Source: Macrolepiota albuminosa
Lineage: Eukaryota > Basidiomycota > Agaricomycetes > Agaricales > Agaricaceae
NCBI GenBank assembly: GCA_027475525.1
Contig: JAMWFC010000049.1
Coordinates: forward strand, 3,704,947 to 3,768,946
DNA: 64,000 bases
Reading direction: 5' to 3'
Below are positions 8,578 to 45,963 of this stretch, piece by piece (the first letter of the stretch is position 1; every line of letters begins with the position of its first letter). A program made the position numbers and the translations under genes. Under the pieces are notes generated by a model, which did not search any database, was not told the origin of the DNA, and worked only from the letters and a program-made list of their open reading frames with translations.

Positions 8578-8809
8578 GGTATCACCAAAAAACGTCGACG
8601 TGTCGGTGGGAAAAAACACATTAAATTCCCCATCATCAGGTTACATAACCTGATCCGACCCTCTCCTCTGCATCACGATCCGCATTATCTCATCAGATAG
8701 ATCAACTTCCATCTTATCTATCTGGACAACTTGTGATCCGATCAGGATCAGATACTCGGTCGATCCGAGATCCGACTGATCCGGCCTTCATCTTATCACT
8801 GCCATCAAT
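8578..8809 (-). other. Spacer between pol and post-pol gene of A
   Basis: 232 bases with no recognised frame. It contains repeated GATCCGA/TCGGATC-type inverted words at 8700-8790 that could fold in the RNA. Nothing else is supported. Confidence 0.4.
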
Positions 8810-11800
8810 CTAAGCACGTGAGCGCTTAGCAAGCTGATTTGGGCGCTTCACGCCCTGCAGTTCTAAGTACCGATCCAATGCTGCCAACTTGGCACATGTG
8901 TGGTACGACTCCCATGTCGTATCACCTGCACTCCACCGCACCTCGAATTCGAGGTGCGTTCCTTCCTGCCACCGATGGCCCAGGATGTCCTCGACAAACC
9001 ATTCTTGTTCGTCACTGGCACCGAAATCATATGGCTCGGGAGTCACCCGATTAGGGAACATAGCATCATTGTTTGCGTTATACCGCCTAAGTAACGATAC
9101 GTGGAACTTAGGCACAATCCGACATGCTTGCAGAGCTGCAGGCAGCTCCAGGACATAGTTTGACGTGCTTGGTTCCGCGACCAAGACTCTGTATGGTCCA
9201 ATGAATTTTGGACACAGCTTTCTCGCTCTTCCTTTTGGAAGATTCAAGTTCTCCGTCGACAGGTACACTAACGTCCCAGGCGTTAGGTCTGGTTCCTCGC
9301 TTCGCCTATCATTTGCATGTCGTGCCTGTACAACACGCGTGGCAATGATAGCATTGTGTGCATTGGCTAGATTCGCCAATGCTTGCTGTGCAAAGTCCTT
9401 TACCCCTTTGTGAACGGCTCCGTCTGCCTTTAGTTCGCACAGCATGGAGGGCATGTACCCTCCATTGAGCTCGAACGGTGCATATTTCGTGGTTTCAGAC
9501 ACGCTCGTGTTGATCACGAACTCAGTTAGCGGTATTCTATCCACCCAGTCACGTTGGTCTGGTCGGACCACCGTACAAAAGATCTGGGCAATACTTCTAT
9601 TCGCTCGCTCTGTCTGTCCATCCGTCTGCAGATGAAACGAGGTAGACATGAGTAGTTTAGCTCCCAGGAGCTTGTGAAGTTCTCGCCACCAGTGAGATGT
9701 AAACTTGGTGTCTCGATCGCTCACGATCAAACTTGGAAGGCCATGTAGCCTTACAATCTCCTTCAAGTAGATCCAGGATAACGCAGACGCCGTAATGGTT
9801 GTATGCACTGGTATCAAATGTACCATACTCGTCATTTGGCAAATGACCACCCAAAGGTAGTTATACCCTTTGGACTCGGGGAATGGACCAACAAAGTCCA
9901 TTCCAATGGAGTCCCACGGCTTCGTCGGGATGGGCAGGGAATGCAACTTCCCTGCTGGCTTCCTATTGCTGGTCTTTGACCGCTGGCAGGCCTCACAGGT
10001 CTGGCAGAACTGCATCACTTCTTTCTGCATCTGAGGCCACCAGTACCATTGTCTCAGGTATTCTAGTGTTTTGTTGGTTCCAAAGTGACCCACAACCTCA
10101 TGAGCTTGAGTGACAACCTTAGTGAGCAGTGCTCGGTCACGTGGTAAGCACACCACGTCGTGTCCTCGAACATTTGTTATCCAGACTAGTCCTTTCTCAT
10201 CCACGCTGAAGCGTGGATGGGCGTTTGCGTTCTGCCGGATTTCTGTGTAGAACGCATCGTGTCTATAGCCCCTCATCACCTTCTGGAGGTACTCATTGGT
10301 TTGAGGGACAGGAGGGTTACGATACTCTTCTGTAGGCGATAACGCGTCAGCAAGCGTCATGTCGTGGCTATCTGGTCCATGACTGCTTCCAGTCTCACTT
10401 TGGTGTGGCCTTGTCGCCTCCTTTTGCTGAGCCTGCTCCAGTTGCTCAGCCTCTATGTCGCGGCCCTCTTGCTGCTCTTGCAGTTGTTGACTGCGTCGCA
10501 GTTCGGTAGCTTGCATAGCCTGAAGCTCGACCACATGCTCCTTCACCTCTCTGTAGCGATGATACGGAAGATCATCGCCATGAGGATCAATACAAATGTC
10601 CGCATCGACATACTCATGCGTATCATGGTGTTTGCCTGCTCTATCGCTCTCGAAGTACCTCGAGAGACAGTCCGCCACCTTGTTCAGTTCGCCTTTGACA
10701 TATGTGATGTCAAAGTTGTAGCGAGACATATAGTCAATCCACCGGCGTTGCCGGGGGGACAACGTTGCTTGAGTCTTGAAGAACTCAAGTGCTTTATGGT
10801 CTGTAATGATGTGGATCTTATATCCCATCAATTTATCTTCCCACTTAAGTAGCGCCTCAAGTATCGCCAGCGTTTCAAGCTCATGGACCGCATAATTCTG
10901 TTGGGCCGAGGTGAACTTCCTCGACATGAACCCTGCAGGCCGACAATTTTGCCATGAGCTTCCCTGGCCGTACATTGCACCTACTCCGGTCTTTGAGGCA
11001 TCACAGATGAGCCAAATCGGCTCATCACGTCGGGGATCTATGGGACGAATGACTGGTGTCTTTGAGCAGATCCTCTTGATCATCTCAAAACATCGTTGAT
11101 GTATAGGTCTCCATATAAATGGAGCACCATTCTGAGTAATAGACATCAACGGTCCAGTATATGCTGTTATATCAGGCAGACAATTGCCGATATAGTTCAC
11201 TAGTCCCACGAATCTTTGCACATCATTATAGTTACGAGGCACACGCCATTCGCGTATGCGATCAATTTTGTCCTGGTCAGGGTGAATACCCTGACTATCA
11301 ATCTTGTGTCCAAGGCAATCCACTGTCTCGGCATATAGTTCGCATTTCTTCCACTTGAGGTATAGCAAGTTAGACCTCAGTCGCTCAAAAATGACACAAA
11401 GATGCTCTTCGTGTTCTTCGATTGAATCGGAGTATATGAATATGTCGTCCAAATAGATATGGACGAACCTCCCGATAACATCCCGGAAGATGGAGGTCAT
11501 CAACCTCTGAAATGTCGCAGGAGCATTGCAATCTCCTATCTGCATAATGTTGCTCACATATGTTCCTGTGATTGACGAGAACACTGTCTTTGGGATATCA
11601 GACAAGCAAATTCTCACTTGCTCATACGCATCCGTCAGGTCAATTTTCGACCTGAACTTTGCTCTCGCCACATCTTCTCGAATCACTTCCTGATCCGGAA
11701 GTGGCGTCACGTCCTTCACGGTGTTGTCATTGCGTTGGCGTGCATCCAACGCCGTCCTTAATGTACCATCTTTCTTCGGAATGCACAATAGCGGAGCAGC

Positions 11801-12361
11801 TTGGGAGGCTGGTTGAGCCTCCCACCAGTGGGCTCTCAGGTACCGATTGGTCTTGTCTCGGAGCTGCTGCTGCAGCGCCATTGGACATCGAGGCAAATGA
11901 TATTTATACACCTTATTCTCATCAATAAGGTTGATTTCATGGTTGACCTCTCGCCAAGGAGGTAACTCCTCCTTGGTTCCGTTCAAAATATCCGCAAATT
12001 CCTGCTGCCACTGCAATCGTAGGTCCAGAATGTCCTCCTTCGTAAAACCACTGGTTTTACCTTTGCCCTTCCGGTCCACATCCTTGCATGGGCGCCTGGA
12101 CCGCTTTGCTTGTACGGCTGGACGGCCATACTTCTCTCTGAGGGCAGTAATCCTCAGCTCGCTGTCATCCGGCGTGTGCAGTCGCACAGGCACTTCCTTC
12201 TTACTTCTCCGCGACGTCACAGATAGTCCGTCGAAGAACACCTCACTTGGCGACGATATCTCGTCGTCACTAGCCTGATGATACGACTCCTCCTTCGACG
12301 TCCATCGTGGTCCATTCCACGCATACATCGACGCCACTAGGTCATTCCACTCAGCAGGCAT
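8810..12361 (-). CDS. pol: Pol of element A: RT, RNase H, integrase, chromodomain-like end
   Basis: 1183 open codons. Reverse transcriptase spans about residues 140-340 with YLDD at 303-306. RNase H starts at CDAS (453) and reaches KVADCLSRY near 560. Integrase has H754, H759, C786 and C789 in the zinc region and a complete DD35E core: D822, D882, E918. The last 60 residues (EWFVEDILGHRW to TTWESY) have the shape of a chromodomain, used in chromoviruses to guide integration to marked chromatin. The first Met here is not the natural start: without the 77-bp duplication at 12363-12516 the frame continues upstream to about 12762. Separated from gag-protease by in-frame TGA stops. Catalytically intact by motif. 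Confidence 0.93.
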   Translation of the reverse strand: MPAEWNDLVASMYAWNGPRWTSKEESYHQASDDEISSPSEVFFDGLSVTSRRSKKEVPVRLHTPDDSELRITALREKYGRPAVQAKRSRRPCKDVDRKGKGKTSGFTKEDILDLRLQWQQEFADILNGTKEELPPWREVNHEINLIDENKVYKYHLPRCPMALQQQLRDKTNRYLRAHWWEAQPASQAAPLLCIPKKDGTLRTALDARQRNDNTVKDVTPLPDQEVIREDVARAKFRSKIDLTDAYEQVRICLSDIPKTVFSSITGTYVSNIMQIGDCNAPATFQRLMTSIFRDVIGRFVHIYLDDIFIYSDSIEEHEEHLCVIFERLRSNLLYLKWKKCELYAETVDCLGHKIDSQGIHPDQDKIDRIREWRVPRNYNDVQRFVGLVNYIGNCLPDITAYTGPLMSITQNGAPFIWRPIHQRCFEMIKRICSKTPVIRPIDPRRDEPIWLICDASKTGVGAMYGQGSSWQNCRPAGFMSRKFTSAQQNYAVHELETLAILEALLKWEDKLMGYKIHIITDHKALEFFKTQATLSPRQRRWIDYMSRYNFDITYVKGELNKVADCLSRYFESDRAGKHHDTHEYVDADICIDPHGDDLPYHRYREVKEHVVELQAMQATELRRSQQLQEQQEGRDIEAEQLEQAQQKEATRPHQSETGSSHGPDSHDMTLADALSPTEEYRNPPVPQTNEYLQKVMRGYRHDAFYTEIRQNANAHPRFSVDEKGLVWITNVRGHDVVCLPRDRALLTKVVTQAHEVVGHFGTNKTLEYLRQWYWWPQMQKEVMQFCQTCEACQRSKTSNRKPAGKLHSLPIPTKPWDSIGMDFVGPFPESKGYNYLWVVICQMTSMVHLIPVHTTITASALSWIYLKEIVRLHGLPSLIVSDRDTKFTSHWWRELHKLLGAKLLMSTSFHLQTDGQTERANRSIAQIFCTVVRPDQRDWVDRIPLTEFVINTSVSETTKYAPFELNGGYMPSMLCELKADGAVHKGVKDFAQQALANLANAHNAIIATRVVQARHANDRRSEEPDLTPGTLVYLSTENLNLPKGRARKLCPKFIGPYRVLVAEPSTSNYVLELPAALQACRIVPKFHVSLLRRYNANNDAMFPNRVTPEPYDFGASDEQEWFVEDILGHRWQEGTHLEFEVRWSAGDTTWESYHTCAKLAALDRYLELQGVKRPNQLAKRSRA

Positions 12362-12762
12362 TCGTGGATCAAATGCCCATTCAAATGTGGGATGAGGTAC
12401 TGGTCGATCCCAGATTGACCGATTCGTATGTGTGGAGGACGTGGATCAAATGCCCATTCAAATGTGGGATGAGGTACTGGTCGATCCCAGATTGACCGAT
12501 TCGTATGTGTGGAGGATGCCTCATCCTCCATCAGTCCTTGGTCGTCGTCATCTGTTACCAAGTCCTCAACCTTCACTCGCGACAACGTCGGTTGGCACTC
12601 TGTGCTTGCCGCATGCTGAGGCCGCTTGTCCTCAGACTTACTCTGCTTTTCACACTTCATCTCCTTCATCTCGGGGCTCTCCCCCCTCTTCAGAGTACGT
12701 TCGTACTCTACAGCTTCGCTTTCCAGCATCAACACCGCCGGACTATCCATGGGCAAGCTCAC
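12337..12762 (-). CDS. N-terminal part of A pol, split off by a tandem duplication
   Basis: 141 codons, same frame as gag-protease. It is acidic, with motifs such as VEDLVTDDDDQG, and then reads FEWAFDPR, which should run directly into the MPAEWND start of pol. H has the same order at 27262-27320 (YDWAYDPQMPQEWNEL). The extra 77-bp copy at 12363-12516 shifts the frame, so this piece ends after 30 nonsense residues. Confidence 0.75.
   Translation of the reverse strand: MSLPMDSPAVLMLESEAVEYERTLKRGESPEMKEMKCEKQSKSEDKRPQHAASTECQPTLSRVKVEDLVTDDDDQGLMEDEASSTHTNRSIWDRPVPHPTFEWAFDPRPPHIRIGQSGIDQYLIPHLNGHLIHECLLSGMT
12363..12516. repeat. 77-bp direct tandem duplication in pol of A
   Basis: The run beginning CGTGGATCAAATGCC at 12363 is repeated from 12440, with the copies agreeing over 77 bases up to GTGTGGAGGA. 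Since 77 is not a multiple of 3 it breaks the pol frame. The H homologue has a single copy. Confidence 0.9.
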
Positions 12763-12864
12763 ATGAGCTTGCTCTTCATCCTCTCCATCCTCAACCGTAG
12801 GCGCTTTCTTGCCTCTGTCTAGTCAGTGTCGCCTGACTAGCACCTTCTTCTCCGTGGCGCGGTG

Positions 12865-14856
12865 TCAATGGAGACGTCCATCTCCATTATCTATGGTCAC
12901 TCGCACTGCAGGGATGGTGGTGCCATCCACCACTATCTCATTCTTCTTGAAGTTCAGCAGGACGTTGTGCTTCCTCATATACGGCGTGCCTATAATCATG
13001 TCGTAACAATCAAAGTTTGCCACATCAAGGTACTCCCTCGTCCTTGATTTCGCACAGACGATACTCGCCTGCGTACCAAACTGTACTGCAGCTCGGCTGC
13101 CCACAGTACCCAATTGAAGGAGTAGTGGCTCCTTCAACTCACTGACAGAAATATCGTGCACTTGGCAAAACTGGGGTGTCACCCCAGTAGTCGTACTACC
13201 TGAATCCCACAATGTCCACGCCTTGTGGCCATTCACCTCAACGTACGATGCCAGGCACTCCTTATCCTTGCGCTTCAACACCGGTCTCACCAGCTTCTCT
13301 GGAGCCTTGCGAAGGTGTACCTTATACACCTTAACATTGGCTGCTCCAACGGGACGGTCTAATGCGCTGGCCGGGTAGTCCGTCAGAGCTCCCATGAACT
13401 CTGAGTCTGACTCCCAGGCGTAATAATCGTTGTCGTATACGTCAACCTCCACGTATTCATCATCCGACAACTCCTCTACCACAGAGGCATTTTCATCCTC
13501 TGGTGCATCAGGTATGAGGTTCTCCACCTCATCGTCTTCCACATCAGGTTCATTTCCGGAGTCTATCCCTTCAGCATCCGGGATAGCAGTGTGCGCCGCC
13601 CGTACATAGGCACGTGGCTTACCCATAGGCTTTCCACCACCCACTGGGCATGCATTCGCAAAATGCCCAGGCTGACCACATTTGAAGCACTTACTCGCCA
13701 CGAAAGGGCGAGCTGCTTCATACTTCGGTGGCCCAGTCGGTGTCGGCAATTTAGCCTCACCAGCAGCCTGATGCGGTCGAACACCCTCTCGGCGTGGACC
13801 TCTCTGAGCATCCTGTGCCGGTGCATCCCTACGGTCCCCCGGCCGGTCGCTCTGGAAGCGTTGGTCTTGCCGAGGTGCTGCTCTTACCATGAACCTCGGG
13901 TTCGTATTGCCCACCATCTCCTTTCGACGAGCCCAGAAGGTGCCTACCTTCCGAGGCTCGGCCTTGTTTACCGATCGAACCTTTGAGCTATGTAGCCCAA
14001 AGTGTCGCGCTATTTTGTGGGCTTGCTCGTAGCGCAATGCATGCGCTACGAATTCCTCGACGGTATTTACTTCGGGCGATAGTCCGTCATCACAAATGAG
14101 AGACTCTCTCATTGCGTCAGGTATCCCCCGCAGGAAGGTATCAATCATTACCCAGTTGTCTGGGTAAATAGACATATTCTGTGCGTGGTCTATCAAGGTA
14201 TCATAGAAACCTTGAACACCTAATCGTTCGGTGTAGGAGGTTGCAATGAACGCCTCCTGAGCATCCTGCATGGTGGATGCACTCACGAACCGGTTATATA
14301 ATTCAAGGATTACATCCTTGAACGTCCATTGCTGTCGTGCACGATTGTAGTGCAAGACATGATGACGGAACCAGGCTTTGGCTGGTCCATCCAGGAACTC
14401 CGGGAGCACAAACACACGTTCTCGATCCAGACGATCCCCCCCATACTGGCATGCTGCCAGATGGTTGCACACATCCATCGTCCAATTTTCCAAGTCGCTA
14501 AACTTGGACTCCCCTCTGTACGGTTGGATGTGTTTTGACTCCGCCTTACGTGGTTTGATACCTTCGGGCAGGCGTAATGCTATGCCTACTGCATCGTCAA
14601 TTATACTACTGAGGCGCTGGTGCATATTCTCAGTATACACCTTTGTTGCCTCAGTTATTCCAGGCGTTTTATTTCTACCTTCCGCTGGAGGTACCACGGA
14701 AAATGCACGTACAGGTCGGTGACCTGTGTAGTGCACTTTCTCTGCACCCTTCCAATGCAGTGGGCTCTCCTGTCCCCCTAGCTCTTCTATCACCTGCTTT
14801 CCAGGGCCTCGGCTCAGATCCGCCGTGGGCGGGTCCCCTCTCCTGGTGTCAGGCTG
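12865..14856 (-). CDS. gag: Gag-protease of element A
   Basis: Open frame of about 660 codons ending in TGA at 12867-12865. Capsid-like region at about 14500-13990 (FLDGPAKAWFRHHVL, YTERLGVQGFYDTLI, HAQNMSIYP). A CCHC knuckle (CFKCGQPGHFANAC, C-x2-C-x4-H-x4-C) lies at about 13648-13692. An acidic linker follows, then retropepsin with LWDSGST at about 13196-13210 and YDMIIGTPYM near 13000. The frame opens just after a TGA at 14859-14857 and has no early ATG, so the real start lies upstream and that TGA is probably a mutated sense codon. After the stop a second in-frame TGA occurs near 12822 before the pol frame resumes, so pol would need readthrough or another mechanism. Confidence 0.88.
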   Translation of the reverse strand, partial: QPDTRRGDPPTADLSRGPGKQVIEELGGQESPLHWKGAEKVHYTGHRPVRAFSVVPPAEGRNKTPGITEATKVYTENMHQRLSSIIDDAVGIALRLPEGIKPRKAESKHIQPYRGESKFSDLENWTMDVCNHLAACQYGGDRLDRERVFVLPEFLDGPAKAWFRHHVLHYNRARQQWTFKDVILELYNRFVSASTMQDAQEAFIATSYTERLGVQGFYDTLIDHAQNMSIYPDNWVMIDTFLRGIPDAMRESLICDDGLSPEVNTVEEFVAHALRYEQAHKIARHFGLHSSKVRSVNKAEPRKVGTFWARRKEMVGNTNPRFMVRAAPRQDQRFQSDRPGDRRDAPAQDAQRGPRREGVRPHQAAGEAKLPTPTGPPKYEAARPFVASKCFKCGQPGHFANACPVGGGKPMGKPRAYVRAAHTAIPDAEGIDSGNEPDVEDDEVENLIPDAPEDENASVVEELSDDEYVEVDVYDNDYYAWESDSEFMGALTDYPASALDRPVGAANVKVYKVHLRKAPEKLVRPVLKRKDKECLASYVEVNGHKAWTLWDSGSTTTGVTPQFCQVHDISVSELKEPLLLQLGTVGSRAAVQFGTQASIVCAKSRTREYLDVANFDCYDMIIGTPYMRKHNVLLNFKKNEIVVDGTTIPAVRVTIDNGDGRLH

Positions 14857-15531
14857 TCATGTCCATTGGACATATTGCCTTCTCATCTCGTCGATGGGCG
14901 TTATCCCATCGAATACAATTCCCTGGTCATCTATCCAGGAGTGCCCCTGGCGCTTCAGGTCTTGGTTCCGCATGCGCTGATAAGCTACTCTCTCCGCAAA
15001 CTTATCAGCCAACGGCACTTGATTTGTCAGTGGAACATTCTCCACTGATTCCTGTTTTGTGTGAGGGTGCCTTGGCTCCCCCGCTTCGTGTAGGTTGCTA
15101 TCTACCACAGGTATGGTAGACACCGATTCAGTTGTCGACAGAGGTCTCCTTCGCTGACCTCTGAATACATTCTGTCTTTGTGCTGCAGCAAACCTGGCAG
15201 CGAACTGCTCGTCAGACTCTCCTGCTTGCTGGGGCGCATATATATTGCTCATTGCCTCTTCCAGATGGGGAGACAACTCTGGCTTTGCCACCGGGGGTAT
15301 ATTCGGGATCAAGTTTGCCCCTCTGGATTCGAGGCAGCTGATCCTTGATTAGCCTTGCGATACATATATGCTTGGGCTTCCAGCTCAAGAATCTGAACGT
15401 ACAATGTAATGTATTCAACAGTATTCAATTGAGGTACATTTTCACCTCTAGCCTGTATCAACCGTATGTGCTTCAGTACATACAGTCCTAGTCGAGCACG
15501 CGTGGTATCCTTTGTAATGCTAGGGTATCTC
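14857..15531 (-). pseudogene. gag: N-terminal gag region of element A, up to the B insertion
   Basis: A frame from about 15340 to the TGA at 14857 has ARFAAAQRQNVF, ERVAYQRMRN and GITPIDEMRRQY, matched in H at 2455-2580. Upstream, in another frame, are LYVQILELEAQAYMYRKA and LYVLKHIRLIQARG (about 15360-15500). The region joins 26313-26335 once B and one ATCTC copy are removed. One frame change and one TGA separate it from the main gag frame. Confidence 0.7.
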
Positions 15532-16301
15532 TGTCAGGTTCCGCTGAATCGGGGGCTTTCCGGGAAAGCGACGCCCTTACGATGCGGACTTGATCTACGG
15601 ATACTCGGGTGTCTGGAACTCCGGGGCTGGGACTCCAGGGTTCAAGACGGGGACAGGGGTAATCCCAGGAGAGGGGACTAGAGTCCGGGGGCTTTGGATG
15701 AGAGTGGCTGGGAGCTAGAGGGGGTTGAGTCGTGAACCGGAGGTTCTAAGACGAGACCAAGTTAGTAAATTAAGAGTCGCGAAGTGCGTACCAAAACTTA
15801 GAGCACGCGAATACCAAGGCGTGCCAGTCGAAGCGTACCAAACGAGGCGTACCAGTCAAACAGAGGGCACGCAATATCCAAGTAACAGTTATGCAAAGTA
15901 TGTAATATCAAGACTAGCGAATACAGCGGAGAACTACACTATAAGTACTACGGATCGTGTCTCGGGTTTCCGGGGTGTCTGGGATGAGTCCCGGGGGTCA
16001 TTGAGTAGCGGCCAGGGACTGTATACCGCGCGCGATCAATTGGCGCGGAGGGAGTCGTGATGCGTGGGGCGTGATGCGTGATGGTCGGATGCGACTCGTG
16101 TGATCCGATCGTTGGTGGCGGTTGATCCCGGGGTCCGTGATGCAGGGGTCCCGGGGGGCTGGCTGATGGTGGTCGCTGATGCGTGTGATGGCGGCGTCGG
16201 TAGCTGTGGGGGCGGGGTGTGCTGTGGGATTGACGGAAGGGATTCCCGGGCGGGGCTCCGGGGGTGTCCCAGGGAGGTTCCGGGGGGGAGGGGTCGTGAC
16301 A
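15532..16301 (-). repeat. 3' LTR of element B
   Basis: 770 bp, plus-strand start TGTCAGGTTCCGC and end GGTCGTGACA. CpG-rich. Same length as 25543-26312 with about 12 substitutions. The bases just inside (16302 onward, ATCACCCCCCCC) are the complement of the polypurine tract, which makes this the 3' LTR in sense. Confidence 0.95.
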
Positions 16302-16428
16302 TCACCCCCCCCTCAGCGCCAAGACCCTCCGAGGCGTGCGTAGCCGGAGGCTCGGACCGGACCTGGGCGTGGGAACCGGCGCCTGCCCTGCCACGTAACG
16401 AAAAAAATTTTTACCATCAAAGTCAACT
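16302..16428 (+). promoter_or_regulatory. Polypurine tract of B and 5' leader of the antisense gene
   Basis: The C-run at 16305-16312 is the complement of the polypurine tract. On the plus strand the rest is the leader of the antisense gene, ending in an A/T-rich run (GAAAAAAATTTTTACC) before ATG at 16429. C keeps the same layout (28108-28235). The antisense promoter must therefore lie in this short stretch or in the adjacent LTR; I do not see a clear TATA box. Confidence 0.55.
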
Positions 16429-18215
16429 ATGTCGCGAACACCGACGCATTCGCCGACGCCCCCGCAAACAAACGAGGTCGCGCCCCTCATGGCGTGGGAA
16501 GCCCGGGACGCGCGTTACCGGGCTCGCCTTGACCGGGAGCGCGTGGCGGCGCTTGTCGCGCAACGTGAGTACTCCCGCGCCGACCCTTTACCCCACTGAC
16601 CTTTCCTTTTCAGAACAACGCAACGTTCCGGCCCTGGAGGCGGGTCCCAGCCAACTCCCGGAGTCAATTCCCGAGGCTGGCCCCAGCGCCCCCCCGGAGC
16701 CCCATCCGAGCCGCCCTGCGCCGACTTTCGCGCGGATGACCGTGCGCCCTCCTCGTCCCCAGCCCCCTCCCCGCCCGAGATTGCCTGCCCCTCGTTTTCG
16801 CCGCTCCCGGATGGCGGTAGGGACGGTTACGGCGGTCCCCGACGATCGGCGCGTCGCATGGGCGGACGCGTCGCAGGAATTGTTCGAGGAGGCGCTGGAG
16901 AGGCCCTGGGGGTTGCCCTCGCACAACTGGTGCGTGAGCAATGGGCCGGTGAGTGGGTCCTTACCTCGGGTTTCCAGGCTAATTCCGGCTTTACAGTGTC
17001 TGCATTGTGCCCGCCGGGTGGTACCGTGCGAGTTCGAGGTCCCGGTTCCGTCGTCCCGCCGAGACACGTCGGTGTGTGAGGCGTGCCGTGCCAACCACGA
17101 GCGGTGCTCCGTCTCGGCGTTGTGGAGGGCGCGCTGCGTTGCGCGGGAGCAGGGGTGGCCGCTGGAGGGGATCACCCGGAGGATGGGGGTTGAGGAGCGG
17201 AACTGGGTGGTTGAGCCGGTGGACGAGGGGTTGGAGCCGGAGGGGGAGGCGCCCGCTGCGCCCGTGCAGTCGTCCAGCGGGGGGTCGGGGGGTCAGGGGG
17301 TTGTCCGGGTGGGGGGCCGGGGCCGGCCCGTGGTCCTCATTACTCGCCGGGTGACCCGGGCTGGTACTGGGGGTCACGGGGGTCGAGGGGGGCGCCCTGA
17401 CAAAGGGAAAAGGCGGGCGTCGCCCAGCCCCTCACCGGGTCCGTCCAAGAGGGCGCGCCTGCCCGTGGAGACCCCGCCTCCATCCCCGACCCCTTCAGTG
17501 CGCCTGTCCCCGGCGACGTTTTCTCCGTTGTCCGGGCGGCCCCTGAGCGCTGAGGTGAGGGTTTTGCAGGGGCGGTTGGAGCAGGCCGACCGGGAGAGGG
17601 AGGAGCGCGAGGCGGCGGCGAGGGAGGAGGCGGCGCTCCGGCGGGGACTGGAGGAGGATCGGGAGGCGGGCCGCCGGGAGCTGGAGGAGGCGAGGGTGGC
17701 CCGGGGGGAGTCGAGGCCCAGCTGGACGCTATGCGGGCCCGGCTGGAGCAGGGGGTGGGGATCCCGGAGAGGGTCCCCCCGGGGCAGGAGCTGGTGGAGG
17801 GGCTGCGCCGTGATGTGGTGATCGCGCGCATGGCCTCTTTGAGTGAGTCCCCGGTCATCACTTGTCCCCTTTGCTGACGTCTCTAGGCTGGGCCCGGGAG
17901 CACCGCTCGCTCCTGGACGGGGCCACCGCGGCACTGGCTGCGTTGCAGGAGGGGCAACGCCCAGAGTTGACGACCCCCGGGGTGGAACGCGGTCTCGATC
18001 TCCTGGGGCGGCTGGTGGGTGCCCACCGGCGAAGGAACGTGCCTGCCCCGGGATCCTGGTTCGAGCGCGTACTGGACGAGGGCGAGCCGCTTCCATCCTG
18101 GGACGTGTTGGCCGAAGAAGTGTGGCGGGAGCTGGGTCCAGGGGGAATGGGGGAAGGCTTCCGGGGTTGGCCGAGGGGGGGAGAGGGTGAGGGTGGCTCG
18201 GGGCCCCAGCTCTAG
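16429..18215 (+). CDS. Antisense four-exon gene of B with a Zn2Cys6-like cysteine cluster
   Basis: Runs opposite to gag and pol. Exons: 16429-16564, 16614-16948, 16997-17842, 17887-18215. All introns start GTGAGT and end CAG or TAG and are 44-49 nt. The sum is 1646 nt; restoring one G missing from the run near 17705 (C has seven G, B six) gives 1647 nt, 548 residues. Order: proline-rich N-terminus with a short helical stretch (ARLDRERVAALVAQ); at the start of exon 3 a cluster C-x2-C-x6-C-x15-C-x2-C-x6-C; basic P/S-rich segment (PDKGKRRASPSPSPG); E/R-rich coiled coil; and a conserved end with RRNVPAPGSWFERVLDEGE. Zn2Cys6 clusters are fungal DNA-binding domains, usually with a shorter middle loop, so a DNA- or RNA-binding regulator of the element or host is plausible but unproven. 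C carries the same gene. Confidence 0.8.
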
Positions 18216-18474
18216 GGGCCCCGTTTTTCTTGTCGTTCGCGTGTTCTCGTGACCCGGAGCTGTAGTAATATGTAGTCTAGAAAATGTATATACTTGGACG
18301 TGGTGCTCTAATGATGTAAGTAAAGTGGCGGGAAAACGAGAAGGAGTACCTGGTCCAGAGTCCGGGGGGCTACTGTGGGAAAGGTACTCAAAGAAAGCAA
18401 GATCAAGAGAGGGAAAACAGAAGTATACGTGGGAGTTGAATCCCTGTTGAGTCCAGAGGCGGGGGTTACGCCCA
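18216..18474. other. Convergent spacer between antisense gene and pol of B
   Basis: 260 bases where the antisense gene (plus) and pol (minus) end toward each other. TGTAGTAATATGTAG and AAATGTATATACTTGG near 18262-18300 could serve as 3'-end signals. The same words recur in C at 30845-30890. No reading frame. Confidence 0.4.
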
Positions 18475-21400
18475 CTACTGCCGTCTGTGAGTCCTGCGCC
18501 CGGGAGGATCGTTTCCCAGGCGCCGCTGTTGGAAGTCCCGGAGTTTGTCGAGGGTGCCTTCGAGATTTCGGCGTGGTTCCCAAGTGTCGTCTTCCGGGCC
18601 GTATCCCTTCCACCGTACGAGGAAGTGGGGTCGTCCACGAATGTTCCGGAAGTCGAGGATGTCTTCAACCTCGTAGTGGTACTCGTCCTCGACCTCGACC
18701 GGGGGAGGGGGCTCGGGGCGTCGTTCAGGGAAGGGATCCGGGGGGTGTCGTTCCAGGAGGCGGACGTGGAATACCGGGTGCAGACCTTTTAGTCCCGGGG
18801 GGAGCTCGATCTTGTAGGCGTGGGACGAGACCTTCTTCAATATTTTGAACGGGCCGAGGCGCTTGTGATCGAGTTTTGGGGAGGGCCGGCGGGTGCGGAG
18901 GTGTCGTCGATCTAACCATACCTTTGTCCCAGGGGTCCAGTCGGGGGTGTCTTCCCGTTTCCGGTCGGCGTATTTTACGTAGGCCCGGTTCGCGGTGTCG
19001 ATCTCTTCCCGGAGGAACTTGTGGAGGGATTGGAGATCCCGGGCGACCTCGTGGGCGGCGTGCAACAGGATGTCCCGGAGCGAGAGCGTCAGTCGAGGGT
19101 GGTATCCCTTGTTGGCAAAGAAGGGTGATACCCCGGTGGCAGAGTGTGGCGTGTTGTTGTAGGTGAACTCGGCCAGAGGGAGCTCGGCGCGCCAGTCGTC
19201 CTGCAAGTAGTTGACGTACAGCCGGAGATACTGCTCGAGGGACTGGTTGACCCTTTCGGTTTGGCCGTCGGTTTCGGGGTGGTAGGCGGTAGAGAGGTTA
19301 GTCTTTACTCCAAGTGCCTTACACAGGGAAGTCCAAAACTTGGACACGAAGAGAGGGCCACGGTCGGAGACGATGTCGTCCGGGAGACCATGCTTGGCGA
19401 AGACGTGCTCGAGGAACAGCCGGGCGAAGTCCGGGGCGGTATCCGTGGTGTGGCAGGGTAGGAAGATGCCCTGTTTGGTTAGCCTGCACACAACGACGAG
19501 AATGGCATCGAACCCTTCAGATTCCAGGAGCTCGACGATGTGGTCCAGAGATATTGAGGACCAGGGGCGTCGTCCGACCGGCAGGGGTTTCAGGAGTCCG
19601 TACGGTCGGTGTCGGGGGACCTTGGCCCGGAGGCAGGGCTCGCACGATCGAATGTAACGGGTCACGTCCTTCTTCAACCCTGGCCAAAAGTAAGTCCGGG
19701 AGATGAGCTGGAGGGTCTTACGTATTCCAGGATGTCCCCGGAGTTTGTGGTCGTGGTGTTGGCGGAGGACGTCGTAGCAAAGTCGGGCGTGATCCGGGAC
19801 GTAGATGCGGCCGTCCCGGAGGAGGAGTTTCTCGTCGGGGGACAAGGAGAAGGCGGGGTCCCAGTCGGTTCCGTCGGAAGAGTTTCGGGGGTCGTGATCG
19901 GTGAAGTACTTGTCTCGGGGAGCGCGGCGGATCTGGTTCAGGGTTCCTTCGTCGTTTAAGATCAGTACGGCATTCAGATGTTCGGGAGGGATCACCACGC
20001 GATGGTTGAACGCATTGCGTTCCGCCTCGAATGACTTCTTGGGGTAGACGTCCGGTCGACGGGTGAGGGCATCGGGCTTGGCGCCAAGTCGTCCCGGGCG
20101 GTACTGAATTGTGAAGTCGTATTCCGAGAGGATCTCGGACCACCGGGCCTGCCGTCGACTGAGTTGCTTGGTCGTGGTGAAGTACTGCAGGTTATTATGA
20201 TCCGAATAGACCTGGATCCGGTGCCGGGCTCCCTCGAGGTAGGCCCGCCATTGCTTGAAGGCTTCGACGATGGCGAGGAGTTCCTTGTCGTAAATGTCGT
20301 AGTTGAGCTCGGCGTCGATCATGGACCGGGTATAGAAAGCGACTGGCCGGGGTTCCCCACCGTCAGGCTCCATCTGTGAGAGGATCCCGGCGATGGCGTA
20401 GTCGGACGCGTCACATTCCAGGATGATCGGGAGGGCCGGGTCGTAGTGCCGGAGTACCGGGGCGACTGTGAAAGCCTCCTTGAGCAAGTTAAAGACGCTC
20501 TGGCACTTACTGTCCCAGTTCCAGGTGATGTCCTTGCACGTGAGCCGGTTGAGGGGTTTCGTGATCCCGGAGTAGTTGTCTATAAACCTCCGGTAGAAGT
20601 TAGCAAAACCCAGGAAGGACTGTACTTCCTTGACGTTCCGGGGCTGCGGCCAGTTGACGATGGCCTCGACCTTGTGGGGGTCCATGCGAACGCCATTCGG
20701 GGATACTATGACGCCAAGATACTCAACCTCTTCCGTATGGAATGAACACTTCTCGGGCTTGGCGTGGAGGTTGTGCTCCCAGAGGCGCTCGAGGACTTGC
20801 CGGACATGCTTCTGGTGATCCTCCGGTGAGTCGGAATAAATGAGGATGTCGTCCAGGTAGACGATCACGAAGACGTCACTCATGTCGTGGAAGATGTCGT
20901 TCATGAAGTATTGGAACGTGGCGGGGGAGTTAGTCATTCCGAAAGGCATCACAAGGTACTCAAACAGACCATACCGCGTGCGGAACGCGGTTTTCCACTC
21001 GTGTCCCGGGGCGATGCGGACGTTGTTGTAACCGGAGCGGAGGTCGATCTTCGTATAAACCTTGGCACTGCGGAGTCGATCGACCAGATCGCCAATGAGC
21101 GGGAGCGGGTAGCGGTTCTTCTTGGTGATCTTATTGAGTCCTCGGTAGTCAACACAGAGTCGGAGCGAGCCGTCCTTCTTCTTGGCGAATAGAACCGGGG
21201 CTCCGGCGGCGGAGGCGGAGGGTCGGATGAATCCCTTACCAAGCATTTCGTCGAGGTAGTCCTTGAGAGCCCGGAGTTCGACCTCCGACATGTTGTAGAC
21301 CTTGCCAAAAGGGGGGGTGGCTCCTTCCTCGAGGTCAATGGTGTGATCATAGGGGCGGTGAGGGGGGATCTCCTTGGCGTCTCCTTCGGAGAATACGTCA

Positions 21401-22170
21401 GCGAACTCGTGATACTCCGGGGGAACTACTTCTCGGAGGATCTGCTCCTCGGTTTTCGGTTCCGGGGGAATAGCGTCCCCTCGTAGGTGTTCTTCCGGGA
21501 GAGAGGGCGAGGTGTGTAGCTGGAACGTGGGAACTCCATCCCTCATGAGGCGGGCGAAGGGGGTGGCCCCAATGATCCTAATGTCGAGTGCGCTCGGGTC
21601 GATCGGGGTCGCAGAAACATCGGCCGGAGCGGGTGTGGTGCGTGTCTGAGACTGGCAGGGGTAGTTCGGCCCTTTGTACTTGTTCCGAGGAATGTTTGGG
21701 GGTCGATCGGGGGCCTTGCGGTCTTGGACGGGCGTGGGTGGTGCATGCGTGGGGGGCGCGGCAGTCGTCCCGGGGGTGTCGGGCGTCGGGTCGCTTCCTA
21801 GAGCCCGGAGGTGCACGGCGGTCGAGGGGTGGTCTTCGGGTCCCGGGAAGGTCATGGTGAGCGTCCTCCAATCGATGTCGGGGTTCGTGTCGCGCAGCCA
21901 GGGTAGCCCCAGCACCATCGGAGTCGATTCGTGAAGTCGCGTGACCAGGAAGTCGGAAGTGAACTCGTAGTTGTTGTCCAGGGTCACGCGTCCCGAGTGA
22001 GACCTTTGGATGGGGCCGGAGGAGGAGGGGGTGCCGTCGAGGCGTTGCAGGCGGAGGGGCTGGTCGAGGGAATCATGGAGGAGGTCGAGAGCGTCGCTGA
22101 TGAATACTCCGGTGGCTCCACTGTGAGATGAGGGCCGATATTGGTCCCGGGGTGCCGTCCAGCCTGGCAT
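18475..22170 (-). CDS. pol: Pol of element B: second protease, RT, RNase H, integrase, chromodomain
   Basis: 1231 codons. Residues 1-105 are the remainder of a second retropepsin ([10 protein letters not shown] at 16-25, [15 protein letters not shown] at 87-101). Reverse transcriptase is about 250-480, with YLDD at 438-441 and [11 protein letters not shown] before it. RNase H is about 580-705 (CDASD at 586, YSDHNNL at 655). Integrase has H806, H813, C843 and C846 and a complete DD35E core: D876, D936, E972. A chromodomain is about 1163-1217 ([24 protein letters not shown]). This is the Tf1/sushi type of chromovirus. The ATG used is not the natural start; pol should be fused to the upstream protease frame, which one extra base near 22125 prevents here. 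Confidence 0.95.
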
Positions 22171-22876
22171 TGATGACGAAGGATTGGAACAAGCGGGATT
22201 GGAGTCCGGGGGGTGATGGGGGCTCGTCCGGGAGGTCCTTCGGGGTTGGGTTTGAGGAGTGGGGGATGTCGAAGGGGAGTTGCTGGTCGTCGGGGGTCGG
22301 GTCCCGGGTCAGGCGAAGGGTGAGGTGTCGCCAATCGATGCGGGGGTTAGTGTCCCGGAGCCACGGGAGCCCTAGGACCAGGGGTGCGGAAGGGTGGAGT
22401 TTGGTTATCAACATCCGGAGGGTGTGAGTCTGTCCGTTGGCGAAGGTAACGGGCATACGCACAAAATGAGTGATGTCCCCCGCCGTAGAGGCGTCGCCGT
22501 CGAAGAGGCAGAGTCGTACCGGGACCGGGAGTCGCTGGGCGGGTTCCGGGGCGAGGGTAGACCATGCTTTGTCGATGAAGTTGTCGGTGGCGCCGCTGTC
22601 GACGAGGGTGTTGAGGGGAGTTCCGGAGGGGGTGAGGCGGGTTTTGAGGAGGAGGGAGTGCAAAGAGTGGGAGGGTAGGTAAGCCGTGAGGGTGTCCTGT
22701 ATGAGCGTCGTAGAGCGAAGATGTGAGACCGGGGCGGAGAAGACGTCGGGGTCGATTCCGCGATTTAGGGCGTCTTCCGGGTCTAAATTGCCGGGTCGTT
22801 TTCCGAATACTCGTAGGTGGCGTCCTCCCCTTCGAAGGTCCAGGTGGCACGTCCCATGACCTGTCGTTTGGGGCAC
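22073..22876 (-). CDS. First retropepsin of element B and start of the second
   Basis: Frame lying -1 to gag and overlapping its end by about 90 nt, so it would be made by frameshifting. Contains [13 protein letters not shown] (catalytic aspartate) and [18 protein letters not shown]. It then runs into a second protease start (ALI) where C reads ALIDSGATGVF; B has one extra base there (CTGTGAGATGAG against CTGTCGATGAG on plus) so the frame is lost. Both halves share the DSGAT and [13 protein letters not shown] segments, a tandem duplication of the protease domain. I saw no canonical slippery heptamer in the overlap. Confidence 0.85.
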
Positions 22877-25509
22877 TCGGAGATAAAATGATCTTTCTCA
22901 CCACAGAGTATGCAGACACCCTCCCTTCTCCGTCGTTCCTGCACATCCGTCGGGACTTCGATCCAGGGTCGTCCCTTCTTTTGAAGCCGGTTGGCTCGGA
23001 GGGCCTCCTCGTCCCGCTCGTCGTCGACGTCGAAGTCTTCGGGGTCTTCCGGGGGTTCCTTGGGGCTTGGCACGTTGCCCGGGTCGTGGGCGGCCACGGC
23101 GGCGTTGAGTTGGGCCTGGGGGTGGGCGCCGCTGCCGGGGTTAGCATTGGGTGGGCCGCGACTCACCGGGGGTCGGCCGCCAGGGAACGCGGGGGGACCG
23201 GGGTTTCGACCTTGGGGGTTGGGAGCTTCGCCGGAGGGCCAAGGGGGTCCTTCTCTAGGGTTCCAGGGGGGTCGGGAATTCGAATACTCGCTGCGATCTT
23301 CCCAGTAGCGTTGGTCGATCTGCATGACGAGGGCCTTGTATCCGTCGTAGGAGGGTTGTTTCGGGGCGAGTCGGAGGACGTCCTTGATGCGTTGTGGCAG
23401 GGCGCGGCGGAGGGCGTACCGGAGGGCGCTGTAGTTCCAACCTGTTTTGTAAGCTTCCTTCTCAAAACGTACGATAAAGGTGGTGAAACGTTCTTCCGAG
23501 CGCATCCGGAGATTGAAGAGGTTGTCCTCGGCCTCGGCCACGGTGTCGTAGATTCCGAACTTCCCGGAGAACTCGTCGACGAAGGCCTGCCAGCGAGCGA
23601 GTGCCGGATTGTTGGGGTCGAACTGAATGAGGGCCGTGTAGTGATCGAAGGCGATCCCCTGGAGGTATGATGCGGCAAAGGCCATCCGGGAGCTGTCAAC
23701 CTGAAACGTGAGCGGCTTTGCCTGAAACGTATTGAGACATTGAGTGAGGAAGGTACGCCATTTTTGGGGGTCCCGGCCCGTGAAAGCGTCGGGCTTTTGG
23801 ATGTCCAGTCGTCCTTCGCGGGCGAGGGCGTCGCGGGCGTCGTCCGGTCCGGCAGCGTTGCGGGGAGGGGGGCCAGCATTGTAATAGTAGTAATAGTGAT
23901 TACCCCCCCCTCCTTGAGGAGGAAAAGCACCAAGGGCGGGGCCCCACCCGCCGGGAGGTCCTCCTCCGGGTGGCTCACCTGGGGGTCCACGCCCGGGAGG
24001 TCCGTTGTCCCAAGGGGGTTCGTTCCTGCCAGGAGGGGGGCCGGGTCTCCACGCCGGGAGTGGCGGAGGTGGAGGGCCTGGGGGTCGTCCTCGAGGTTCA
24101 GCTGGGGGTGGCGGAGGCGGTCGGGGAGGGTTCGGCGGTGTCGGGTCGGGCGGAGGGGGGTTAGGTGCTGGGTCGGGTGCCGGGTTGCGCGGGGGACGTT
24201 CATTCCGGGAGGGTCGGGCTTGCATCGGGGGTCGCGGGGGGTTCCGTAGGTCGAAGTGGGGTGGCGGATCGCGGCGGAAGTTGCGTTCCGGAGGGGCCGG
24301 GGCGGACGTGGCGGGCGGTGCTGGTGCCGGGGCGGGCGCGGGCGCGGGACGTTGTTCGTTGTTGTCGCGCGTGAGCTCGTCAATGTAGCATAGCGTGTCG
24401 TCCGTACTAGGGGTGTCCGCCCGGGCTCTGCCGGGGCTCGTCGGGGGCGGAGGTCGGGCGTTGTCTGTTCGCGGGAGGGGTTCCAGGGGTCTTTGGGGCT
24501 GTCCCCAGGTCTCGAAGGTGCTAGGGACAGAGTTAGCCCTGCGGCGAGTTGACAAGCCTACCGTGCGGGCCGCGGGTTGATCGAAGAGGCCTCCAGCCGG
24601 ATTGAGGGACCGTAATATGGCTGAGGCGTTCTGCCGTTCTTCCCGTTGTCGTTGCTCCGGGGTGGGGACCGTGGGGGCTGCCGGGACTCCTGGGGCCGGT
24701 TCCGGGGGTTCCCGTTGAATGTGAATCGAGCGACCTGGGTCCGCGGGGTCGTTGATGGGCCGAGGGGAGGGGGATGCGTGGACTTCGTCGAGCAGTTGCT
24801 GTAATTCTTCCTGGAGGATCGTGTTGCGCCTATACTTTACCATGGTTTGCTCCGGGAGTTCTCCTCGCGTGAGGCGATCCCCAAATTCGACCAGGCAGTG
24901 AGCCCATTCCTCCGGAGTGCCTTCGAAGTCGTCGTGTCCGAATTCCACGAGCAGCGTCCTGGTCCGTTGCGCGAAGTCCTCTGGTGAGATCCTGAGGGAG
25001 CGGAGTACCTCGTCCCGTTGCCGTTCGTACTCCTCGAGGCGTCGTCGTCCCATTGGCGAGGGAGGGGTTTGAGCGGGTGGAGCGGCGGCCGGGTAATGAC
25101 GGGGGGGGTAGTCGGGGTAGGGAGGTCCTCGGGGTTCTCGGGGTTGGGGGACGGGGCGCTGATAACCGTAGTAGGGGGTGGGTGCAAAGGGGCCCTCGCT
25201 GGGGGGAATCGGGCGAGGTCCACTGGGTACAGGTGGGGTCTCCGGCAGGCCCCCGGGGATGCTCCGGTACGAGGGGACCTCCACGGGTCGTGCCATGGCT
25301 AAATTGGGCGGAGGGGCCCAGCTGGCTGAGGGCCCCAGGTTGTAGAGGGACGGGTCGGGGGCCCAGTGGCGGTGGAGATATGGAGGTTCGTACGGGAGAG
25401 GTGGGTAGACGGGGCGGGGGGTCTGCGCGGAGTAGTGGTCGGGTACCGGGCGTCCGTAAGGGTCAGTCTGGTACCCGGTGGGGTAGTAAGTGTGAGTATA
25501 CGTAGCCAT
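22783..25509 (-). CDS. gag: Gag of element B
   Basis: 908 residues from ATG at 25509, which lies 33 nt after the LTR in sense. The first 200 residues are Y/P-rich (TYTHTYYPTGYQ), followed by a weakly charged segment with EEFAQRTR-like helices and a long proline/glycine/arginine linker at about 390-560. The capsid-like domain is at about 570-800 (RLDIQKPDAFTGRDPQKW, MAFAASYLQGIAFDHY, EERFTTFIVRFEKEAYKTGW). One CCHC knuckle lies at C866, C869, H874, C879. Longer than most Ty3-type Gag because of the linker. The frame is undamaged. C has a decayed copy at 50229-52799. Confidence 0.93.
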   Translation of the reverse strand: MATYTHTYYPTGYQTDPYGRPVPDHYSAQTPRPVYPPLPYEPPYLHRHWAPDPSLYNLGPSASWAPPPNLAMARPVEVPSYRSIPGGLPETPPVPSGPRPIPPSEGPFAPTPYYGYQRPVPQPREPRGPPYPDYPPRHYPAAAPPAQTPPSPMGRRRLEEYERQRDEVLRSLRISPEDFAQRTRTLLVEFGHDDFEGTPEEWAHCLVEFGDRLTRGELPEQTMVKYRRNTILQEELQQLLDEVHASPSPRPINDPADPGRSIHIQREPPEPAPGVPAAPTVPTPEQRQREERQNASAILRSLNPAGGLFDQPAARTVGLSTRRRANSVPSTFETWGQPQRPLEPLPRTDNARPPPPTSPGRARADTPSTDDTLCYIDELTRDNNEQRPAPAPAPAPAPPATSAPAPPERNFRRDPPPHFDLRNPPRPPMQARPSRNERPPRNPAPDPAPNPPPPDPTPPNPPRPPPPPPAEPRGRPPGPPPPPLPAWRPGPPPGRNEPPWDNGPPGRGPPGEPPGGGPPGGWGPALGAFPPQGGGGNHYYYYYNAGPPPRNAAGPDDARDALAREGRLDIQKPDAFTGRDPQKWRTFLTQCLNTFQAKPLTFQVDSSRMAFAASYLQGIAFDHYTALIQFDPNNPALARWQAFVDEFSGKFGIYDTVAEAEDNLFNLRMRSEERFTTFIVRFEKEAYKTGWNYSALRYALRRALPQRIKDVLRLAPKQPSYDGYKALVMQIDQRYWEDRSEYSNSRPPWNPREGPPWPSGEAPNPQGRNPGPPAFPGGRPPVSRGPPNANPGSGAHPQAQLNAAVAAHDPGNVPSPKEPPEDPEDFDVDDERDEEALRANRLQKKGRPWIEVPTDVQERRRREGVCILCGEKDHFISECPKRQVMGRATWTFEGEDATYEYSENDPAI

Positions 25510-25529
25510 CAAGAACGGTGTAAGGAGAG

Positions 25530-25542
25530 AGTCTTGATATTA
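25530..25542 (-). promoter_or_regulatory. Self-priming type primer-binding site of element B
   Basis: Sense sequence right after the 5' LTR is TAATATCAAGACT. It is exactly complementary to AGTCTTGATATTA in the LTR (plus 25914-25926), which lies 25 nt downstream in sense of a TATA-like element (25951-25956), where transcription should start. In Tf1 of fission yeast the first 11 nt of the mRNA fold back on the primer site and prime reverse transcription. The 13-nt match here fits that mechanism. C has the same pair. Confidence 0.8.
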
Positions 25543-26312
25543 TGTCAGGTTCCGCTGAATCGGGGGCTTTCCGGGAAAGCGACGCCCTTACGATGCGGAC
25601 TTGATCTACGGATACTCGGGTGTCTGGAACTCCGGGGCTGGGACTCCGGGGTTCAAGACGGGGACAGGGGTAATCCCGGGAGAGGGGACTAGAGTCCGGG
25701 GGCTTTGGATGAGAGTGGCTGGGAGCTAGAGGGGGTTGAGTCGTGAACCGGAGGTTCTAAGACGAGACCAAGTTAGTAAATTAAGAGTCGCGAAGTGCGT
25801 ACCAAAACTTAGAGCACGCAAATACTAAGGCGTGCCAGTCGAAGCGTACCAAACAAGGCGTACCAGTCAAACAGAGGGCACGCAATATCCAAGTAACAGT
25901 TATGCAAAGTATGTAATATCAAGACTAGCGAATACAGCGGAGAACTACACTATAAGTACTACGGATCGTGTCTCGGGTTTCCGGGGTGTCTGGGATGAGT
26001 CCTGGGGGTCATTGAGTAGCGGCCAGGGACTGTATACCGCGCGCGATCAATTGGCGCGGAGGGAGTCGTGATGCGTGGGGCGTGATGCGTGATGGTCGGA
26101 TGCGAGTCGCATGATCCAATCGTTGGTGGCGGTTGATCCCGGGGTCCGTGATGCAGGGGTCCCGGGGGGCTGGCTGATGGCGGTCGCTGATGCGTGTGAT
26201 GGCGGCGTCGGTAGCTGTGGGGGCGGGGTGTGCTGTGGGATTGACGGAAGGGATTCCCGGGCGGGGCTCCGGGGGTGTCCCGGGGAGGTTCCGGGGGGGA
26301 GGGGTCGTGACA
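25543..26312 (-). repeat. 5' LTR of element B
   Basis: 770 bp. In sense a TATA-like CTTATA (plus 25951-25956) precedes the putative transcript start at plus 25926. Differences from the 3' LTR include a CGCG site that became CGTG in one copy and CGCA in the other; C keeps CGCG at 53403-53406, so both are independent CpG losses. Confidence 0.95.
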
Positions 26313-26334
26313 ATCTCTTCCATAGCATAGCACA

Positions 26335-35391: not shown

Positions 35392-36429
35392 TGATGAGCT
35401 CCCATTATAGATGACCATGGATAGCGCCAACACAAGCACCTCACATTGGCACATTGGTACCACCAGGAGCGGCACGCCTTAGCGCTCCAGGGGCTAATTT
35501 TTGCATATTTTTATGTTAATAACTCGCAGCTGGAGCCTCTAATTACTCCAGGACCACTCTTTATGGCACCATCTATTCTTAGCACTCCTCTTGACACCTT
35601 GCCGCACCTTGCCACTCACCCTTCAGGGCCATACATGGACACAGACACTTGGCACCCATGATGCTCTTAGCCGGTGGCAGCAGGAATGATGAAGTATTTT
35701 ATGACAGACAGCTTGGAGTTTCACCTTAGCACCTGACGTCGCTTAGCTTCTTGCCGACTCAGACTGACAGCATGATTGTGGACTTTTTCACCATATAGTT
35801 TAATTCACGGCATTCACTTACATATAAATACTTACTTTTTGTTAGTAGTACATCATCAATTTGGCAGTAGGGATTGTATCTCACCATTTCGGTCACCCTA
35901 CGCAACAGACTACCTTTTGTTGACCGTGTCGGCAAGGGGACTCTGCTTTAGTTCTCTCTCACTCTTTCAGTCTGCAATCTCTTAGTGCCTTGCAACTACG
36001 GCAAGGCATTTGTGCTTAGATCTGCTAAGCAATCTCGTCATTTTATCATCTCTTTTAGGTGCTAATACTTAGCGCCTCTTAGTGACCCTTTACAGTGTCT
36101 CTTAGCGCCTTTCCTTGGTGACTCTCTCTCGCGCTCCTTAGCGCCTTTCCTTGGCGACTCTCTCTCGCGCTCCTTAGTGCCTTTTCTTGGCGACTCTTTC
36201 CCGTGCCTCTTAGCACCTTTCCTTGGTGACTTTTTAGCATACTCTTGCCGCATTTTTGGGCCTTATATAAGCGCCAATCACCCCCTTTCTCTTACCACCA
36301 ACCTCTTGCCTACTGTGCGTTCTCTGGGACCTGTCCGGGACTCTCTCTAATACTTAGCGCGCCCAAAGCTATATTGACTAAGTAGCTGTACTAGTGATAG
36401 TGCACCTTAGCACAATTTGGGCGTCATCA
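35392..36429 (+). repeat. 5' LTR of element E
   Basis: 1038 bp, start TGATGAGCTCCC and end GGGCGTCATCA. TATA box TTATATAA at 36263-36270. A block of four 36-bp direct repeats lies at about 36100-36235. TTAGCGC words are frequent throughout. Confidence 0.95.
36100..36235. repeat. 36-bp tandem repeats in the E LTR
   Basis: About four diverged copies of a 36-bp unit starting CTCCTTAGCGCCTTTCCTTG, with TTAGTGC and TTAGCAC variants that look like CpG decay of TTAGCGC. It sits directly upstream of the TATA box, so it could be an enhancer-like or protein-binding block. The second LTR has the same block at about 49264-49399. Confidence 0.8.
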
Positions 36430-36432
36430 AAT

Positions 36433-36445
36433 TGGAGCCCACCGC
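36433..36445 (+). promoter_or_regulatory. tRNA-type primer-binding site of element E
   Basis: TGGAGCCCACCGC, three bases after the LTR. TGG is the complement of a tRNA CCA end. The identical site follows the internal LTR at 45964-45976. Confidence 0.8.
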
Positions 36446-45960: not shown

Positions 45961-45963
45961 AAT

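Follow-up and report, generated by a model that had tools for sequence, protein, structure and literature searches.

Antisense open reading frames (ORFs) located between pol and the 3' long terminal repeat (LTR) have been reviewed for plant LTR retrotransposons (PMC7264820), and the antisense TRP28 proteins of Retand are predicted to bind DNA (PMC11963269). In fungi, Boty of Botrytis carries the antisense gene brtn (PMC7264820, PMC8365987), and a CHROMO domain is present in Boty-like elements (PMC4227169). For the HBZ protein of human T-cell leukemia virus type 1 (HTLV-1), a nuclear role (PMC11963269) and an antisense promoter inside the 3' LTR (PMC7264820) have been described. These statements come from the accessible parts of the sources, and within the same parts the word 'intron' appears neither in the Retand paper (PMC11963269) nor in the review (PMC7264820), the latter of which asks that antisense and spliced transcripts be looked for. 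Likewise, the word 'antisense' is absent from the accessible text of a survey of fungal LTR elements (PMC3248453) and is used once, for small RNAs, in that of a paper on extra ORFs in rotifers (PMC5408684). Here we analysed a stretch of 64,000 nucleotides (the window) from Macrolepiota albuminosa (assembly GCA_027475525.1, contig JAMWFC010000049.1, positions 3,704,947 to 3,768,946, forward strand), in which a four-exon gene on the plus strand (16429-18215) sits between pol and the 3' LTR of a minus-strand chromovirus, element B. We found that the exon structure and position of this gene are conserved, that its protein is under selection, and that it is present across the element family.

A four-exon antisense gene under selection

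The gene starts with an ATG at 16429, 127 nt inside the edge of the 3' LTR, and its stop codon ends at 18215, approximately 260 nt before the stop of pol. Exon 1 (16429-16564) is followed by intron 1 (16565-16613, 49 nt, GTGAGT...CAG) and exon 2 (16614-16948), which encodes a proline-rich part and then a conserved lead-in toward a cysteine cluster. Intron 2 (16949-16996, 48 nt) precedes exon 3 (16997-17842), which contains the six-cysteine cluster (16997-17107), the motif GRGRP, a KRRA...SKRAR stretch, and the start of a coiled coil. After intron 3 (17843-17886, 44 nt), exon 4 (17887-18215) encodes a conserved C-terminal domain (WAREHR.LLDGA...HRRRN..PGSW), to which a stretch in Termitomyces proteins is similar, and the stop. 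A reading made from the letters alone (the sequence-only reading) had proposed this gene, and its coordinates, four exons, introns of 44-49 nt, cysteine spacing C-x2-C-x6-C-x15-C-x2-C-x6-C, and antisense location relative to the minus-strand pol were all reproduced exactly. The intactness of the gene had to be corrected, in that the structure stood whereas exon 3 of the window copy loses its frame in the second half. Since exon 3 is frameshifted, the window copy is a broken member of its family.

A DNA search of the genome (approximately 100 Mb in 129 contigs) gave 66 matches from the best 40 of 698 candidates. Thirty-nine copies were fetched, 5 exact duplicates were removed, and the resulting 34 copies were aligned with the window copy (35 rows). 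Among the rows covering each intron, GT-AG was kept in 34/34 for intron 1, 34/34 for intron 2, and 33/35 for intron 3 (the exceptions being L030 and L033), and a branch-like CTRAY motif was present in 34/34, 34/34, and 34/35, respectively. Intron lengths ranged over 49-51, 46-48, and 44-48 nt, with outliers of 126, 30, 30, and 121 nt in four rows. These lengths shift by 1-4 bases, out of threes, and eight open copies share one spliced frame. A frame of more than 530 codons was open in 8 of the 35 rows, the tail being shifted in one of them (L028); in two further rows, the frame stayed open to 524 and 527 codons. Of five divergent copies also fetched, four were readable at the cluster. In L056 and L060 the frame runs open across introns 2 and 3, and in L057 and L059 across intron 3; since these introns read through open, splicing is not strictly required for an open frame in these four copies.

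Selection was measured by the ratio of nonsynonymous to synonymous substitution (dN/dS). All six frames were compared over exons 1 and 2 and the cluster, using the 19 of 35 rows free of length differences in this block. The spliced plus frame had a dN/dS of 0.20, versus 0.34, 1.20, 1.34, 1.63, and 1.96 in the other five frames, and it held 0.21 stops per copy versus 1.05-5.37. In the frame with the value of 0.34, which holds 2.3 stops per copy, the signal probably stems from the third positions of the coding frame. By segment, dN/dS was 0.13 in exon 4 (17889-18110, 27/35 rows), 0.16 in the cluster (29 rows), and 0.22 in exons 1 and 2 (23 rows). The C-terminus of pol in the same copies gave 0.30, with a median pair of 0.15 (32 rows), so that the antisense gene is comparable to it. 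The proportion of differing sites in the introns (0.091) was between the synonymous (0.159) and the nonsynonymous (0.051) proportions, over 30 pairs with equal intron lengths. The sequence-only reading had named unconserved exon borders or a lack of synonymous bias as grounds for dropping the gene; the borders proved to be kept in 33-34 of 34-35 rows, and the bias is evident from the dN/dS of 0.13-0.22.

The host element and its copies

Element B (15532-26312, minus strand) is flanked on both sides by the 5-bp target-site duplication ATCTC (15527-15531 on the left and 26313-26317 on the right). Its 3' LTR (15532-16301) and 5' LTR (25543-26312), both on the minus strand, are 98.4% identical (12 mismatches in a 770-nt alignment), and the divergence of 1.6% indicates a fairly young insertion. 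The pol ORF (18475-22308, minus strand) contains reverse transcriptase, RNase H, integrase, and chromodomain according to Pfam (E-values of 1.2e-41 for RVT_1 and 5.4e-13 for Chromo). Because pol holds these domains, element B is a chromovirus (Ty3/Gypsy, Metaviridae); the C-terminal position of the chromodomain, the paired LTRs, and the short target-site duplication are all present. An ORF at 22783-25539 (minus strand) is gag-like with a zinc knuckle, its gag and zinc-knuckle Pfam matches all being under the cut-off. Adjoining the 3' LTR is a probable polypurine tract (16302-16314), purine-rich on the minus strand, and the corresponding plus-strand C run is kept with small changes in 34 aligned rows. 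The 127-nt leader from the LTR edge to the ATG of the antisense gene (16302-16428, plus strand, aligned in 34 rows) is a candidate promoter or 5' untranslated region.

Three protein queries were used to determine the extent of the family: the cluster of element B (best 150 of 828 candidates), the cluster of the second element of the window described below (150 of 803), and a Termitomyces protein (94 of 1520, from a shortened listing of which rows covering the cluster were chosen by eye). The merged searches gave at least 259 antisense-gene loci. Compared with the best 150 of 1721 chromodomain candidates, 104 of these loci had a chromodomain within 6 kb, and the other 155 were unpaired. In 103 of the 104 paired loci the chromodomain was on the opposite strand and downstream of the antisense gene, which thus lies downstream of pol on the opposite strand; in the remaining one, it was on the opposite strand and upstream. 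The antisense gene was directly seen in 103 of the same 150 chromodomain loci. Eight of the 47 loci apparently lacking it were fetched, and portions of the gene lie on the opposite strand in all eight, the best listed rows covering exons 1, 2, and 4 only in L048 and the two ends only in L053. By its position, its strand, and its conserved presence across most family copies, the gene fits the aORF-3R category (antisense additional ORFs located between pol and the 3' LTR), for which it would also have an antisense promoter of its own.

The window itself contains a second copy of the gene (28236-30795, plus strand; found by tblastn and blastn) in the next minus-strand chromovirus (27473-53417). 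This copy is broken by an inverted LTR-like insert at 29694-30484, and the chromovirus is also interrupted by an apparent nested element. Over copies L009-L047, the 5' and 3' parts of the antisense gene have different nearest relatives, and their distances barely track those of pol. Between the window copy and L010, the difference is 3.9% in the 5' part and 23.1% in the 3' part, and between L018 and L020 it is 20.8% and 1.4%, respectively, for which template switching or gene conversion among copies is the likely source. The observed/expected CpG ratio was 0.71-0.79 in L014, L030, L031, and L024 versus 0.91 in the window copy (nine rows computed), which suggests CpG decay in these four copies, perhaps via DNA methylation. 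Five pairs of copies at different places (L010/L011, L025/L046, L031/L044, L032/L045, and L035/L047) show no difference at all across the region compared and may reflect duplicated haplotypes or segmental duplications in the assembly.

The predicted protein and its proposed role

The predicted spliced protein of approximately 540 residues consists of a proline-rich start, the lead-in, the cysteine cluster, GRGRP, a stretch resembling a nuclear localization signal (NLS), the coiled coil, and the C-terminal domain. We take GRGRP to be AT-hook-like and KRRA...SKRAR to be like a bipartite NLS. The cysteine spacing was exact in 34/34 rows covering the cluster, and the NLS-like motif was found in 35/35 rows with a loose pattern. 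All 17 related proteins at E<=1 were named Termitomyces, the first with 38% identity over 72%. Seven of the 17 (P0001-P0004, P0006, P0008, and P0009) have the exact six-cysteine spacing, the rest being partial or changed there, and 13 have the NLS-like motif with a stricter pattern. An AlphaFold2 (AF2) model of one relative contains long helices at 255-331 and 334-395, with a mean predicted local distance difference test (pLDDT) score of 62 and confidence mainly in the first long helix. When the cluster was modelled by itself, the score was poor (54); the model places helices at 2-7 and 28-34, one next to each CxxC. A helix beside each CxxC is also found in Zn2Cys6 domains.

The sequence-only reading had assigned the cluster to the Zn2Cys6 type. 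The six-cysteine pattern stood, whereas the Pfam cut-off was not reached and the profile match was weak. No protein scanned reached the gathering score of Zn_clus (PF00172), 21 bits, and window exon 3 gave no Zn_clus match at E<=1. Five of six relatives matched under the cut-off, P0003 best with 17.3 bits (E 0.0052), and P0006 was without a match. The genome holds 30 Zn_clus matches, 0 of which lie within 3 kb of the at least 259 loci. Twelve host domains of Zn_clus type were fetched, and seven were used, five being without the six-cysteine frame. When a profile of the cluster was compared with that of the seven host domains, all six cysteines fell in register, with a weak match (probability 22.5%, E 0.00093, versus E 0.24 for a reversed control); the host profile against 41 cluster sequences reached E-values down to 3e-6 in a tiny search set. 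The cluster shares with the fungal Zn(2)-Cys(6) factors its six cysteines, each half reading CxxC-x6-C; unlike them, it scores under the Pfam cut-off and has a linker of 15 residues, versus 5-11 in the seven host domains. CGG triplets were not enriched in the leader near the start or in the LTR, which leaves binding to CGG sites undecided. Together, these results are only suggestive of membership: the cluster looks like a Zn2Cys6 domain and may function similarly, but we do not assign it to that family.

We give an even chance to the reading in which this is an accessory gene of the chromovirus lineage, whose spliced antisense mRNA yields a nuclear, dimeric protein that binds DNA or chromatin and regulates the element at its own LTR. 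The gene would be expressed as a separate spliced mRNA, whose promoter would probably lie within the 3' LTR or beside it. Its introns, being antisense, would be carried unspliced via the genomic RNA into each new copy. The protein, with its cluster resembling Zn2Cys6 and possibly binding zinc, its NLS-like stretch, its long coiled coil, and its conserved C-terminal domain, would most likely dimerise in the nucleus and bind DNA or chromatin at the LTR of the element. In doing so it would tune the transcription or silencing of the element, by analogy with HBZ for HTLV-1. In regard to the introns, spliced-junction patterns (<=3 mismatches), able to recognise spliced forms of 16/35 rows for E3/E4 and 23/34 for E2/E3, gave 0 matches for each junction. 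This lack of intronless descendants within the reach of the patterns is as expected if the introns in the genomic RNA went unrecognised by the splicing machinery, and it fits the proposal of the sequence-only reading that antisense orientation preserves them, the cause itself being our interpretation. Retrotransposition is expected to erase introns, and a selected intron-bearing gene in a retroelement would offer a clean natural case of escape by antisense orientation.

The analysis has several weak points. The junction patterns reach no further than spliced forms of these 16/35 (E3/E4) and 23/34 (E2/E3) rows, and the exon-4 pattern, with its 148 matches, controls exon 4 alone. Moreover, the dN/dS pairs are non-independent and uncorrected for relatedness or CpG decay. 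The rank correlations of pairwise distances were 0.05 between the 5' part and pol, 0.23 between the 3' part and pol, and 0.41 between the 5' and 3' parts; the copies are therefore mosaics, and this too makes pairwise dN/dS values non-independent.

The antisense protein could instead be a factor for integration or nuclear entry that, in place of regulating transcription, accompanies or encounters the pre-integration complex and steers it to the nucleus or to particular chromatin, a role raised for plant antisense ORFs in the accessible part of the review (PMC7264820). The NLS-like motif, the coiled coil, and a conservation comparable with that of pol would all suit such a factor. However, chromatin targeting is already provided by the chromodomain integrase, and the cluster appears more like DNA-binding domains than like partners of Gag or integrase, so that we consider this role unlikely, while still deserving attention. 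If the antisense transcript itself acted, it would pair with the genomic RNA and limit copy number or feed small-RNA silencing. For plant and animal elements, roles of this sort are considered in the accessible text of the same review (PMC7264820), and the gene is indeed antisense inside the element; but the dN/dS of 0.13-0.22, the spliced frame, and the exact cysteine spacing would be left unexplained, and we regard this account as improbable.

We place equally little credence in a transcription factor transduced from the host that acts mainly on host genes and keeps the host permissive. The host genome does contain 30 ordinary Zn_clus matches, and introns would suggest an origin from a cellular gene. 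Nevertheless, no close host gene was found, the match to the host Zn_clus domains is weak, and all 104 paired loci lie by a chromodomain, the 155 unpaired ones of the at least 259 having been examined only where fetched. Frames open by chance in GC-rich DNA, or a misread env-like ORF of the sense strand, would account for the long open frames on both strands and for the one other frame with dN/dS below 1 (0.34). Low dN/dS and few stops are, however, combined only in the spliced plus frame, four of the other frames being at 1.20-1.96, and the splice signals are nearly invariant; we take this last explanation as refuted by the per-frame dN/dS, the stops, and the splice signals, and leave it practically no weight.

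Neighbouring elements and known antisense genes

Other repeats share the window with element B. Another minus-strand Ty3-like stretch (5767-15348) has ORFs at 8810-12445 and 12865-14856, and its pol is 33-36% identical to that of element B. A probable nested plus-strand element (35392-48855) has repeats at 35392-35691 and 48556-48855 that are 99% identical, with 36-nt tandem repeats at both ends (36042-36271 and 49206-49435). A large inverted repeat (58494-63998) has arms at 58494-59835 and 62654-63998 that are 80-83% complementary, with approximately 2.8 kb between them.

The sequence-only reading had mentioned antisense ORFs in some plant LTR elements and presented this gene as unfamiliar. 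Genes of this kind are already known (in plants and in the fungal Boty); its introns, cysteine cluster, and lineage are new as far as the literature search shows. The gene is like the plant Retand-type antisense ORFs in having the same position and orientation, a presence in most family copies, a conserved protein, and a nuclear or DNA-binding character shown or proposed. Unlike Retand, which belongs to a non-chromovirus plant lineage, it has three introns, a six-cysteine cluster, and a fungal host. When window exon 2, exon 3 (up to 17707), exon 4, and six relatives were scanned, neither TRP28 (PF04195) nor the basic leucine zipper (bZIP) family matched at E<=1. Zhao et al. (2011) reportedly described brtn, the antisense gene of Boty-like elements in Botrytis cinerea. 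According to the accessible parts of the sources, Boty is like element B in residing in a fungus, in having a CHROMO domain, and in carrying an antisense gene located between pol and its 3' LTR; it differs in coming from another fungus, and the likeness is one of reported features.

HBZ shares with the gene its antisense orientation, its tie to the 3' LTR, and its nuclear location (here predicted). It differs in being a bZIP protein of a retrovirus, and no shared ancestry is implied. It is possible, though we would sooner doubt than assert it, that the gene encodes a zinc-cluster DNA-binding regulator kept in a multi-intron antisense gene across several strongly diverged subfamilies, including those of Termitomyces (whose genes are known from proteins alone). 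Such a regulator would form an HBZ-like circuit run from the 3' LTR of the element itself, of independent origin in fungi, whose introns, being read in reverse, would survive reverse transcription. Since one genome holds at least 259 loci, with open as well as broken copies among those read, fungi offer a setting in which the function of such genes can be tested. Together with plant Retand and Grande, Boty of Botrytis, and HTLV, the gene of element B suggests that antisense accessory genes of a nuclear kind have repeatedly originated in the interval from pol to the 3' LTR.
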